IMG/VR virus record: IMGVR_UViG_3300027784_000053
Coordinates: 1-22,731 of that record
Reading direction: 5' to 3' (one strand)
DNA: 22,731 bases
From: a virus
Numbering within the stretch: position 1 is the first letter of the stretch; the number at the start of each line of letters is the position of its first letter. The position numbers and the translations under genes are program-made. This document shows, piece after piece, positions 2,158-9,198 of this stretch. The notes beneath the pieces were generated by a model. The model searched no databases. It was not told where the DNA came from and saw only the letters and a program-made list of their open reading frames with translations.

Positions 2158-2932
2158 AGTCAGCGAACTTTTAGACGGCGAGGAACCGCAAGCTAAGCCT
2201 AGAGATATAGCAGGCTTTCCTATCGTGTCAGTAGGCACTATGGAAAAGTATGTCAATATCCTTATCTATGGAGAGCCCGGTGTAGGTAAGACGGTTCTCG
2301 CTGGCTCTGCTGCGGCTGTAGACGCAATGGCTCCGGTCCTCCTGCTGGATATAGAGGGCGGAACCATGAGCCTCGCAGATACCTACGCCAACGTCGATGT
2401 CATCCGTGTGCTCCACTGGCGCGATTTGCAAAAGATTTACGACAAGTTGCTCAGTGGTGACCACGAGTATAAGACCATCATTCTTGATTCGCTCACAGAG
2501 GCTCAGAAGCTGTCTATGGGTGACATTATGAAGAGGGTAGCAAAGGAGGACCCAGACCTAGACCCTGACATTCCTACCATGCGAGCATGGGGTAAGAACA
2601 TCGAGCAGATGAGGAAGTTTACCCGTGCGCTGCGTGATCTACCTGTAAATGTAATCTACACAGCACTCGTAGACAGTGAGAAGGACAACCGAGGTAAGAC
2701 TGTAGCTCGTCCTAGCTTCCAAGGGAAGTTGAAGGGTGAGGTACCAGGCTTCATGGACATTGTAGCTTACTACTACATCAGGCAGGTTGGCGATAATCTT
2801 AAGCGCATCCTGCTGACGCAGCAGACAGACACTACCATAGCAAAGGACAGGAGCAACAAGCTGCCCAAGTTGATGGAAGACCCAACGATGCAAGAAATCT
2901 ACTCAGCAATCATCACTAAGGAGAGCAACTGA
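2150..2932 (+). CDS. Sak4/AAA_24-like RecA-fold recombination ATPase
   Basis: A 260-residue P-loop ATPase with Walker A GEPGVGKT (41-48), a LLLDIEGG strand (64-71), Walker B TIILDS (109-114), a NVIYTALVD strand (about 167-175) and the late AKDRSNKLP motif (231-239), the order seen in the AAA_24 / Sak4 group. Sak4 proteins are RecA-core single-strand annealing or exchange factors that usually work with an SSB encoded beside them; here the next gene is DUF669-like. The start is TTG at 2150, overlapping the nuclease stop by 8 bases, with GAGG at 2137-2140. Residues 1-30 look flexible and charged. The family is confident; recombinase activity is by analogy. Confidence 0.87.
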   Translation: MSKVSELLDGEEPQAKPRDIAGFPIVSVGTMEKYVNILIYGEPGVGKTVLAGSAAAVDAMAPVLLLDIEGGTMSLADTYANVDVIRVLHWRDLQKIYDKLLSGDHEYKTIILDSLTEAQKLSMGDIMKRVAKEDPDLDPDIPTMRAWGKNIEQMRKFTRALRDLPVNVIYTALVDSEKDNRGKTVARPSFQGKLKGEVPGFMDIVAYYYIRQVGDNLKRILLTQQTDTTIAKDRSNKLPKLMEDPTMQEIYSAIITKESN

Positions 2933-3363
2933 TGGTACGCATTAACTTCGCAGAGGTAGAGGACAGCCCACAGCTTCCCGCAGGGAAGTACCACTTCGCT
3001 ATTACTGATGGCGAGGTACGTGAAACCAGTGACACTAGTAAGCACCCAGGTAATGATTTCTGGAGCTTGGAGCTGACTGTACAGGACGGTGAGCAGCAGG
3101 GCCGTAAGCAGTACATGTCAATTATGCTGCCCCCGTACGAAGTCTTTACTCTTGCTCGTTTGATGAGGGTTACTGTCGGACAGCATGAGTACACTGAAGA
3201 CCAGCTTGCGTCTGGTGAGTTCGATGTAGAACTTGACGACCTTATGGGCCTTGAGTTTGTAGCTTCTGTTCGCCCACAGAAGGGCAACACTGACTACAAT
3301 GAGGTTCGTAACATCAAGGCTTTCGACCCGGAAGACTGGGAAGACGCTGACCTGCTTCCGTGA
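2932..3363 (+). CDS. DUF669-like putative ssDNA-binding protein
   Basis: A 143-residue protein with the pattern of DUF669 family phage proteins: an N-terminal F-x-E-VED...LPAGKYHFAITDGEV strand pair, a central NDFWSLELTVQDGE...GRKQYMSIML segment, a helical ...FTLARLM part, and an acidic C-terminus ending EDWEDADLLP. An acidic tail is a common feature of SSB-like proteins that recruit partners. TGATG at 2930-2934 joins it to the Sak4-like gene, so stop and start share one base. DUF669 proteins are usually found with Sak/Erf-type annealing factors and are thought to bind single-stranded DNA. The family call rests on pattern and context. Confidence 0.75.
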   Translation: MVRINFAEVEDSPQLPAGKYHFAITDGEVRETSDTSKHPGNDFWSLELTVQDGEQQGRKQYMSIMLPPYEVFTLARLMRVTVGQHEYTEDQLASGEFDVELDDLMGLEFVASVRPQKGNTDYNEVRNIKAFDPEDWEDADLLP

Positions 3364-3483
3364 CATAGTGTAAGCCGTGTGGTGGTTGAGCCGTCAGTAA
3401 CGAGCGCTGAGTTGGAAGCCCCCAACACCGACGGTCGATAAGCGCTGACCACCACACCTACTAGGTCGGCGGAGGTAGGTGTG
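3364..3483 (+). promoter_or_regulatory. structured leader of the primase-helicase gene, candidate translational switch
   Basis: This GC-rich spacer can form P1 (GTGTGGTGGT 3377-3386 with ACCACCACAC 3448-3457), P2 (CCGTC 3391-3395 with GACGG 3430-3434) and P3 (GTTGG 3411-3415 with CCAAC 3422-3426, six-base loop). AGCGCT at 3403-3408 can pair with AGCGCT at 3441-3446, which would be a pseudoknot across P2. A rival hairpin, CACACCTAC 3453-3461 with GTAGGTGTG 3475-3483, buries the GTG start codon (3481-3483) and one base of the GGAGG site. It uses five bases of P1's right arm, so the two states exclude each other. I do not recognise a known riboswitch class. The pairings are seen directly; regulation is inference. 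Confidence 0.55.
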
Positions 3484-5700
3484 AAACGGGTAACTAACGA
3501 GGAATTTTTCCGATTCCTGTTTGGAGAGGAAGAAGGTTACCTGTGCATTGTAGAGATAAGTAGGAACACGCAGAAGGTTAAGTCAAACAAGAAAGTTAAG
3601 CAGCACTTCTACATGTACCCACAGGAGCTTCCAAAGGTATTAGAACTTGTAGAAGCAATGAAGGCGCAAGTGGACCTTTACTTCGCTCCATTCTTGTTGA
3701 CTGAGCCTAAGCGTAAGAAAGCCTTTATCACTGATACTCCTACAGCGTGGGCTGACGGTGACCTTTGTCCCATTGAGTCACTTAAGCTAGAGCCCAGCGT
3801 TATTGTACGTAGCTCAAAGAGCGAAGACCAAGAGAAGTTTCACTTCTACTGGAAGTTCGATGAGCTACAACCGTCTGACGTAGGTGAGTCAATAAGCAAG
3901 CGGATTGCTTACACTCACGAAGCAGATGGCATGGACGTCAGTGGTTGGGACCTAACGCAGTTACTGCGTATTCCTAATACCTATAATCACAAGTATACCC
4001 CTCCAGTACAGGTTAGTCCTGCACTTCTTACAGAAGGATCTGTATACGCACCAGAGCATTTTGATAGTCCCTACCCGGAAGTAAATGGTCAAGTAGACTA
4101 TGTTGAGGTAGAGTCAATTGACTTGCCTGACGAGTCTGCAAGGCAGTTGCTATCTAGGTATAAGAATGCACTGTCACCACGAGCCATAGACCTGTTCGTA
4201 GAGGTACCACTTAATAACTGGTCATCACCTCTATACGAACTACAATGCACGCTGTTTGAAGCTGGACTCTCTAAGGAAGAGGTCTTTGTTATAGCTAACG
4301 AAGCAGCATGTAATAAGTATGCTAGGGATAACAGACCGCAGGCCCACCTGTGGAAAGAGATTCAAAAGGTCTATGCACAAGTACAAGCAAAGCAGGAAGC
4401 ACCACCGGAGGACGATTCTGATTTAACAGAGAGTATAGAGCGTCCTCCTATCTTACTTACAGAGGAAGAGGTAGAGCTAGTCCGTAAGGATAGAACCTTT
4501 ATAGAAGACTATACGGATTGGGCTAAGGGGCTAGGCGACGCTGCTACTCAGTATCACCCTGTGGGAGCATTCGTGATACTCAGTAGTCTTATGTCAGGTA
4601 CAGTACGTATCCCTACCTCATTCGGCACCCTAATACCTAACCTGTGGTTCTTGATTCTCGCCGACACTACTCTTACACGTAAGTCTACAGCTATGGATAT
4701 AGCTATGGATTTGCTGCTAGAGATAGACGACGACATCATGCTTGCCACAGATGGGTCTATTGAGGGCTTGATGACGGCTATGGGTACACGTCCTGGTCGG
4801 CCTAGTATCTTTCTGCGCGATGAGGTAACGGGACTCATCGACTCTATTTCTAAGAAAGAGTACATGGCTGGCATGATGGAGATGCTGACCAAGATGTATG
4901 ATGGTCGCCCTATGAAACGTATTCTTCGTAGGGAGACTATCAATGTTATTGATCCCCGCTTGATTTTCTTTGGTGGGGGCATCCGTAATAAAATGATGGA
5001 TATTCTTGACTATCAACATATCTCATCTGGCTTTCTACCCCGCTTCATCTTCGTGACAGCAGAGTCAGACATAACGAAGCTAAAGCCTATTGGTCCCCCT
5101 ACTACTGAGGGACAAGAGGAACGTGAGGCTCTAATAGAGTATTTAGATAAGCTGTATGATAAGTACAACTACAAGCCTGTTCGTTCTTCTAGTACCAGTA
5201 GTAAGGTTAGCTTTCCTAAGCACTGGCCTGTCCAGTTAACAGAGGAAGCATGGTACCTCTATAATTCATTTGAGGTCAAGCTACTCGACCATGCTATGAA
5301 GTCTATAGATCCTTCTATTATGACTCCTATGATGGACCGCTTGGCAAAGAGTGGATTGAAGGCCGCTGCTTTGTTAGCCGCTAGTAAGCTACCAGAAGAG
5401 AAGATTGTAGTAGAGAAGATAGACATACTACATGCTTTCTACTACATCGAGCAGTGGGTCAAGCACACTATCTACATCATCAACAATATAGGCAAGTCTC
5501 ACGATGAGAAACTGATTCAAAAGCTCTTTGACACTATCAACGGAAACCCAGGCATTCTCCGTAGTGAGATAATGCGTCGTAACTATATGTCGGCTCGTGA
5601 CGCTGAGCAGATTTTCCTTACTATGGAGCAGCGTGGACTAATCAGACGAGAAAAGAAAGGTGGGCGCGGTGAGCGAATTTACCCCTCAACAAGAAGATAA
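3481..5700 (+). CDS. primase-helicase (AEP/RepB-like primase + DUF3987-like ATPase)
   Basis: A 739-residue two-domain replication protein. The N-terminal third looks like an archaeo-eukaryotic-type primase: FITDTPTAWADGD (82-94, candidate metal-binding D-x-D), RSSKS...FHFYWKF (110-126) and the basic GWDLTQLLRIPNTYNHKY (155-172). From about 325 a P-loop ATPase of DUF3987 type follows: ADTTLTRKST (394-403) in the Walker A position, with Arg400 in place of the usual Gly before Lys401, and IFLRDE (443-448) as Walker B. The last 70 residues look like a winged helix (ILRSEIMRR...LTMEQRGLIRREKKGGRG). The start is GTG behind GGAGG (3471-3475, spacing 5). It probably unwinds DNA and lays primers for the downstream polymerase. 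Motifs support the fold; activity is inferred. Confidence 0.82.
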   Translation: MKRVTNEEFFRFLFGEEEGYLCIVEISRNTQKVKSNKKVKQHFYMYPQELPKVLELVEAMKAQVDLYFAPFLLTEPKRKKAFITDTPTAWADGDLCPIESLKLEPSVIVRSSKSEDQEKFHFYWKFDELQPSDVGESISKRIAYTHEADGMDVSGWDLTQLLRIPNTYNHKYTPPVQVSPALLTEGSVYAPEHFDSPYPEVNGQVDYVEVESIDLPDESARQLLSRYKNALSPRAIDLFVEVPLNNWSSPLYELQCTLFEAGLSKEEVFVIANEAACNKYARDNRPQAHLWKEIQKVYAQVQAKQEAPPEDDSDLTESIERPPILLTEEEVELVRKDRTFIEDYTDWAKGLGDAATQYHPVGAFVILSSLMSGTVRIPTSFGTLIPNLWFLILADTTLTRKSTAMDIAMDLLLEIDDDIMLATDGSIEGLMTAMGTRPGRPSIFLRDEVTGLIDSISKKEYMAGMMEMLTKMYDGRPMKRILRRETINVIDPRLIFFGGGIRNKMMDILDYQHISSGFLPRFIFVTAESDITKLKPIGPPTTEGQEEREALIEYLDKLYDKYNYKPVRSSSTSSKVSFPKHWPVQLTEEAWYLYNSFEVKLLDHAMKSIDPSIMTPMMDRLAKSGLKAAALLAASKLPEEKIVVEKIDILHAFYYIEQWVKHTIYIINNIGKSHDEKLIQKLFDTINGNPGILRSEIMRRNYMSARDAEQIFLTMEQRGLIRREKKGGRGERIYPSTRR

Positions 5701-6114: not shown

Positions 6115-6299
6115 GCGGTAAAGTCTGTGACGACCCAGCACCCTGTGGACCCCCTCCTACCCCCAGCTTCGACGGGGAGCCCGTCAGGTCGCGCAGGAGC
6201 GCGCGAGGGGGCAGCCCATAGCATCACACCACCTACCCCGCTATCTCACGGCAGGCGCGAGCTGACAGGGCCGCGCGCAGCACTAGTAAGGGATTCAGT
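6115..6299 (+). ncRNA. GC-rich branched structured element before the polymerase gene
   Basis: This 185-base spacer is far richer in G+C than its flanks. Outer stem: CCCTGT 6141-6146 with ACAGGG 6265-6270. Inside it are CCCCCTC 6150-6156 with GAGGGGG 6205-6211, which encloses two hairpins (GACGGG 6171-6176 with CCCGTC 6180-6185, loop GAG; CGCGC 6190-6194 with GCGCG 6199-6203), and then ATAGC 6218-6222 with GCTAT 6240-6244. It could be a structured RNA, a processing or attenuation site, or a DNA element such as an origin, lying between the primase and polymerase genes. GC-rich DNA folds easily, so function is unproven. No convincing promoter was seen. Confidence 0.45.
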
Positions 6300-9122: not shown

Positions 9123-9198
9123 GAGAATAAGCAAGGGCCAGGCCGCCAGCACCCTAGGGGCACCGAAGGGAGGCGCGACCTGGCCCTTGTTTATTCTC
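9123..9198. terminator. bidirectional terminator between convergent operons
   Basis: GAGAATAAGCAAGGGCCAGG (9123-9142) is the inverse of 9179-9198 except for one pair (9131/9190, which is a G-U in the + transcript). In both directions a GC stem (AAGGGCCAGG with CCTGGCCCTT) is followed by a T-rich tract, so it can stop rightward early and leftward late transcripts. The 36-base loop is GC-rich and can form smaller stems (CGCC 9144-9147 with GGCG 9172-9175). The stop codon of the 129-aa - strand gene (9191-9193) lies inside the right arm. Confidence 0.85.

Follow-up and report, generated by a model that had tools for sequence, protein, structure and literature searches.

What is held in the gap between the SSB-like gene and the primase-helicase gene of this phage replication operon, and does it control access to the primase start codon? 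The initial annotation had read two mutually exclusive RNA folds in this gap, with the layout of a riboswitch, a protein-bound leader or a temperature switch. We compared the gap with its counterparts in related phages and followed the predicted stems through them.

The replication operon and its relatives

The window analyzed here, 22,731 bases long, spans an entire IMG/VR virus record and is possibly a partial phage genome. Its plus strand carries a replication operon encoding a PD-(D/E)XK nuclease, a Sak4-like ATPase, an SSB-like protein, a DUF3987-type primase-helicase and a UDG-PolA fusion. The SSB-like gene matched the PHROG SSB families phrog_6015 (E = 2.7e-6) and phrog_378 (E = 1.9e-4), and the call is backed by a matching gene order in relatives, with the counterpart in Curtobacterium phage Nonagon annotated as 'SSB protein'. 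The primase-helicase matched PF13148 (E = 1.1e-18) and the DNA primase family phrog_10514 (E = 7.6e-109). Three other places in the window were recorded. An ORF at 187-909, close to where the replication gene block begins, has the look of a papain-type cysteine protease by eye, and a GC-rich non-coding stretch of 185 nt at 6115-6299, directly 5′ of the UDG-PolA gene, folds ordinarily (z = +1.5). Where the replication genes converge with the minus-strand genes, the gap holds a stem of about 24 positions with a 28-nt loop (9123-9198), which looks like a bidirectional terminator.

Searches with the primase initially gave two relatives, and profile queries raised the number to 44 and then to 80 loci. 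Named phages were found by tblastn with the primase at about 23–32% identity, and several of them maintain the gene order Cas4-type nuclease, ATPase, SSB and primase. A close relative of the window was not found among these, the best having 61% identity in the primase; the SSB protein of the window as a query gave no closer ones, and the DNA of the region had no real match in the phage records. Extraction of the SSB–primase gaps yielded 94 distinct sequences, 86 of which were usable. One of the gaps (L031:2627-2821) contains about six GGCGCCT iterons spaced by about 35–40 nt, an origin- or operator-like arrangement.

The sequence inside the first stem of the window, P1, is not conserved in the relatives and weakly resembles that of a single locus, L115; a search with an exact 23-mer from this interior gave no match. 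Taken by themselves, the two interiors are not significantly similar (49 of 2000 shuffles were equally good), and the score of the whole-gap alignment with L115 was reached by none of 2000 shuffles. A pattern search for P1 together with the GTAACG core shared by the window and L115 returned 54 matches, nearly all of them without a P1-like stem, which was closed only by L186, the contig of L115 itself, and perhaps by L183. The matches are thus mostly chance, and an element common to the window and L115 is possible.

Predicted stems in the gap of the window

The features of the locus are collected in Table 1. The perfect 10-bp P1, the three pairings that it encloses and the perfect 9-bp hairpin containing the GTG start were all recovered exactly where the initial annotation had placed them. 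The SD sequence GGAGG (3471-3475) lies at the loop edge of the start hairpin. Since the AGCGCT pairing and P2 are not nestable together, a pseudoknot is possible within P1. The spacing of P1 to the genes on both sides is typical of the compact gaps in relatives.

Table 1. Positions of the genes and predicted RNA features around the SSB–primase gap of the window.
Feature	Position	Strand	Sequence	Remarks
SSB-like gene (OB-fold type)	2932-3363	+		Stop TGA 3361-3363; 5′ of the stem
SSB–primase intercistronic region	3364-3480	+		117 nt; holds the structured RNA
P1, 5′ arm	3377-3386	+	GTGTGGTGGT	13 nt past the SSB stop
P1 interior	3387-3447	+		61 nt; variable domain holding P2, P3 and the possible pseudoknot
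P2	3391-3395 / 3430-3434	+	CCGTC / GACGG	
Possible pseudoknot	3403-3408 / 3441-3446	+	AGCGCT / AGCGCT	
P3	3411-3415 / 3422-3426	+	GTTGG / CCAAC	
P1, 3′ arm	3448-3457	+	ACCACCACAC	Ends 23 nt ahead of the primase start
Start hairpin, arms	3453-3461 / 3475-3483	+	CACACCTAC / GTAGGTGTG	Covers the spacer and the GTG start
Primase-helicase gene, DUF3987-containing	3481-5700	+		GTG start

Among dinucleotide shuffles of the window gap, a perfect stem of at least 10 bp arose in 0.35% and a stem of at least 9 bp covering the start codon in 0.05% (P = 0.0005), both being features hand-picked in the initial annotation. The folding energy of the whole gap is ordinary (z = −0.9), with 38 of 200 shuffles equally good.

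A stem at a fixed place across the relatives

Substantial structure was observed in the gaps of the relatives. The 86 distinct SSB–primase gaps had a mean folding z of −3.1, and 73% of them fell below −2, as against a mean of −0.66 and 17% for 66 control same-strand gaps from the same contigs, which were defined by rough ORF-based gene calls (MWU p = 1.3e-12). Perfect stems of at least 10 bp were present in 50% of the SSB–primase gaps and in 6% of the controls, and a smaller, earlier comparison agrees with this result. The constant feature is one long stem matching P1, which usually ends 21–28 nt ahead of the primase start; the typical member has a stem of 10–18 bp enclosing from 3 to more than 100 nt, and about 16 of 87 gaps lack a stem of at least 9 bp. 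The first stem starts at a median of 10 nt past the SSB stop, and this spacing does not depend on how long the gap is (rho = 0.16, p = 0.19). Longer gaps instead have the primase start farther from the stem (rho = 0.61, p = 1e-8), so the anchor of the stem is the SSB stop codon and not the primase start.

No sequence core is common to the 86 gaps, and only near-identical phages have the same stem sequence. As only the shape of the stem is conserved, sequence searches are blind to the element. At three loci (L108, L121 and L132) six stem pairs are altered on both sides while the flanks and the CGCACC loop are kept; the L077 group shows two such double changes, and the pair L007 and L013 shows one double change and three changes of G-U type. 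Four further loci (L111, L130, L109 and L104) have the bases after the stem in common and stems that are unrelated. Strong stems contain 66 G-U against 15 A-C oppositions (p = 9e-9), and the plus-strand folding energies are better than those of the minus strand (p = 3e-6). The compensatory pairs and the G-U bias indicate that structure rather than sequence is under selection in the stem. The strand bias means that the stem folds as the sense strand, which fits mRNA and is also compatible with plus-strand single-stranded DNA.

The covariation was shown in the stems of relatives, and P1 of the window is joined to this family by position and shape. The initial annotation had let its proposal depend on compensatory changes in relatives; these were seen for the P1-like stem, but the start-covering stem is absent from the same gaps. 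A real structured RNA in the gap is thus indicated, P1 being the portion whose position and shape the relatives conserve; the structure is well supported, and the function of the stem is what we infer below.

On the whole contigs of six relatives (L187-L204), other stems of 12–24 bp were located in about 3–10 gaps per genome by rough gene calls, many with interiors of 20–55 nt and some sharing TTAGAC/GTCTAA or CCGTGTGG motifs. The long stems elsewhere in these genomes suggest that the element may not be particular to SSB and primase.

The hairpin over the start codon

A riboswitch, a thermosensor or a start-codon switch, as first proposed, draws on the 9-bp stem over the GTG, which shares bases with P1 and is rare in shuffles, and on the SD zone being mostly paired in the folding model. 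The claim that P1 and this hairpin exclude each other overstates the case. The 4–5 bp junction that they share does compete and migrates, but in each stem the five to six innermost pairs are about 100% formed in the computed ensemble, so that the two largely co-form; imposing the complete P1 costs 3.6 kcal/mol, and imposing the complete start hairpin 0.5 kcal/mol. A stem of at least 7 bp over the start is absent from all 85 other distinct gaps, the 3′ arm of P1 shows no preferential complementarity to the start region of its own phage over those of other phages (p = 0.12), and the stem, as shown above, follows the SSB stop. Mutually exclusive folds that hide or free the start or the SD sequence were not conserved in the relatives, nor did the 86 gaps reveal an aptamer core conserved in sequence and structure. 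The remark that the region belongs to no recognized riboswitch class was borne out, with no riboswitch or ribozyme family of Rfam matching the window even at E ≤ 10; over the relatives, Rfam returned only tRNAs, all outside the gap. We consider control of the primase start by alternative folds to be very unlikely. The start hairpin, to judge from the gaps compared, is specific to the window and may be a translation-damping feature, or chance.

tRNAs and tRNA-like folds in the same gap

Sense-strand tRNAs were observed in the SSB–primase gap of Anansi, Molivia, Yappy, Pioneer3 and Jojan60, with Yappy and Jojan60 having a stem directly past the SSB stop and then the tRNAs. At two other loci the gap contains a predicted tRNA with the anticodon TTA inside the outer stem (L015:1688-1762 and L030:2263-2337); this anticodon would read the UAA stop, and an ochre suppressor or a decayed tRNA is possible. 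The gaps of L011 and L017 contain folds with a T-arm in which ARAGORN calls no tRNA, and a search with RF00005 did not confirm the tRNA-like folds of L011, L017 and L041. In the window, no tRNA cloverleaf was found by ARAGORN or RF00005. The gap end of the Stenotrophomonas virus Jojan60 (L053:2725-2916) resembles the tRNA-like ends of tmRNA (GGGGCATGATGGTTTCGAC...GGGTTCGATTCCCAGATGCTCCACCA), and ARAGORN made no call on it. The presence of tRNAs in the same slot supports a role at the RNA level, and suggests that different RNA folds are able to serve there.

Function of the stem

The best explanation, to which we give a probability of about 0.5, is an intercistronic mRNA processing or stability stem that would separate the levels of SSB and primase made from one transcript. 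The region 3364-3480 would be transcribed within the replication operon mRNA (nuclease, Sak4-like ATPase, SSB, primase and polymerase), which would fold into P1 right past the SSB stop and enclose the variable domain, and the single strand left beside P1 would just suffice for ribosomes ending SSB and starting primase. The stem would act on the mRNA as a processing element, a decay barrier or both, being either a site for a double-stranded-RNA nuclease or a block to 3′-5′ exonucleases, and in some relatives tRNAs or tRNA-like folds might do the same job through tRNA-processing enzymes. Abundant SSB and scarce primase would in this way be uncoupled and made at different levels. The stem does lie in an untranslated gap directly past the upstream cistron, as in stability hairpins, and the conservation of pairing only, after a high-need cistron and before a low-need one, fits a processing or decay-barrier stem. 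Nearly all members carry no U-tract, and in compact gaps the primase start comes only about 23 nt later, which makes read-through mRNA the presumable source of primase. A plain decay barrier would not obviously be expected to change its stem sequence as rapidly as is seen here.

A position 7–15 nt past a stop codon would suit a transcription attenuator, in which the long stem would partially terminate transcription after SSB and so reduce that of primase, and a few members (L024 and L039) do resemble classic terminators with T-runs. However, a U-tract was seen past only 5 of the scanned stems, the tails being about one third T, and the roughly 23 nt to the primase start offer no space for a new promoter, so that read-through would be needed; the tRNAs that occupy the same place are not terminators. 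In the window no terminator-like site was found at 3364-3480, where the tail CTACTAGG does not provide the immediate U run that follows the GC stem of an intrinsic terminator. We regard attenuation as unlikely. A slightly lower probability is given to a hairpin in single-stranded DNA that serves as a replication start or a primase recognition site, comparable to the ssi sites of RSF1010. Its place is fixed beside SSB and primase, the strand asymmetry agrees with plus-strand single-stranded DNA too, and the gap of L031 has iteron-like GGCGCCT repeats; yet several G-U pairs per stem suit RNA more than DNA, the anchoring to the SSB stop and the avoidance of the ribosome-binding zone fit mRNA, the stem sequence freely changes completely, and the cumulative GC skew of the window takes no turn at 3.4 kb.

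A protein-bound operator, at which SSB or primase would bind the stem in its own mRNA and repress translation, appears improbable. Nucleic-acid-binding proteins are encoded next door, and the fast turnover could reflect protein-RNA co-evolution, but the members have no loop or bulge motif in common and the stem lies at the 3′ end of SSB and not over the primase start. The diverse contents of the gap (tRNAs, tRNA-like folds and plain stems) might also come from an insertion-tolerant spot that gathers small RNA genes with no shared function. Most members nevertheless keep the stem, with compensatory changes and fixed spacing, which makes this explanation highly improbable.

We tentatively consider, as a possibility on the doubtful side, that the element belongs to a widespread and undescribed class of intercistronic RNAs in phages, with the post-SSB position and the pairing fixed, the stem sequence rapidly replaced between conserved flanks and around a conserved loop, and tRNAs able to substitute. 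Such a class would amount to a modular slot for RNA punctuation, on which diversifying selection possibly acts. Literature searches, where many subscription journals lay outside reach, found no description of this element. The element points to a role in regulation or processing within the core replication operon of a large phage group whose members are mostly uncultured, and it raises the questions of why the sequence of an RNA stem would change faster than the surrounding bases and by what means tRNAs could stand in for the stem. Members with named hosts, in phages of Arthrobacter, Curtobacterium, Clavibacter and Streptomyces, make the element testable.

Comparison with known systems

Theta ribozymes, which are minimal HDV-like ribozymes, are pseudoknotted phage RNAs often found near tRNAs (PMC10879173), and the window resembles them in its possible pseudoknot. 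As an HDV-like or theta ribozyme, read by eye at 3387-3447, the candidate was rejected, its pairing not fitting the nested double pseudoknot with a catalytic C of these ribozymes: its P1 has 6 and not 7 bp and its P3 5 and not 3 bp, with extra junction bases, and Rfam gave no HDV match. The sense-strand tRNAs and tRNA-like folds that several relatives carry in this gap recall tRNA punctuation, the processing of mRNA at flanking tRNAs as in mitochondria, though neither the window nor the majority of members has a tRNA there.

In phage T4, gp32 and gp43 repress translation of their own mRNAs at the gene 32 and gene 43 operators. These likewise place structured mRNA adjoining the genes of replication proteins, but the stem described here is anchored to the upstream stop codon and does not lie over the ribosome-binding site.

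The malE-malF REP element and the puf operon hairpins are stems just past a stop codon within an operon, between a product in high need and one in low need, and the stem described here has the same placement. Unlike them, it varies extremely in sequence, frequently surrounds a long domain and is replaceable by tRNA-like folds, and it shows no palindromic consensus repeated across sites as REP elements do. The RNase III sites of phage T7 (R1.1, R1.3 and others) lie between cistrons as stem-loops and set off early and replication genes from one another. The stem described here is likewise a predicted intercistronic phage stem-loop beside replication genes, but without the T7-type consensus or internal-loop pattern and probably in different hosts. 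By analogy, the element would work like the intercistronic stability hairpins and the phage RNase III sites, with membership in either family being putative.
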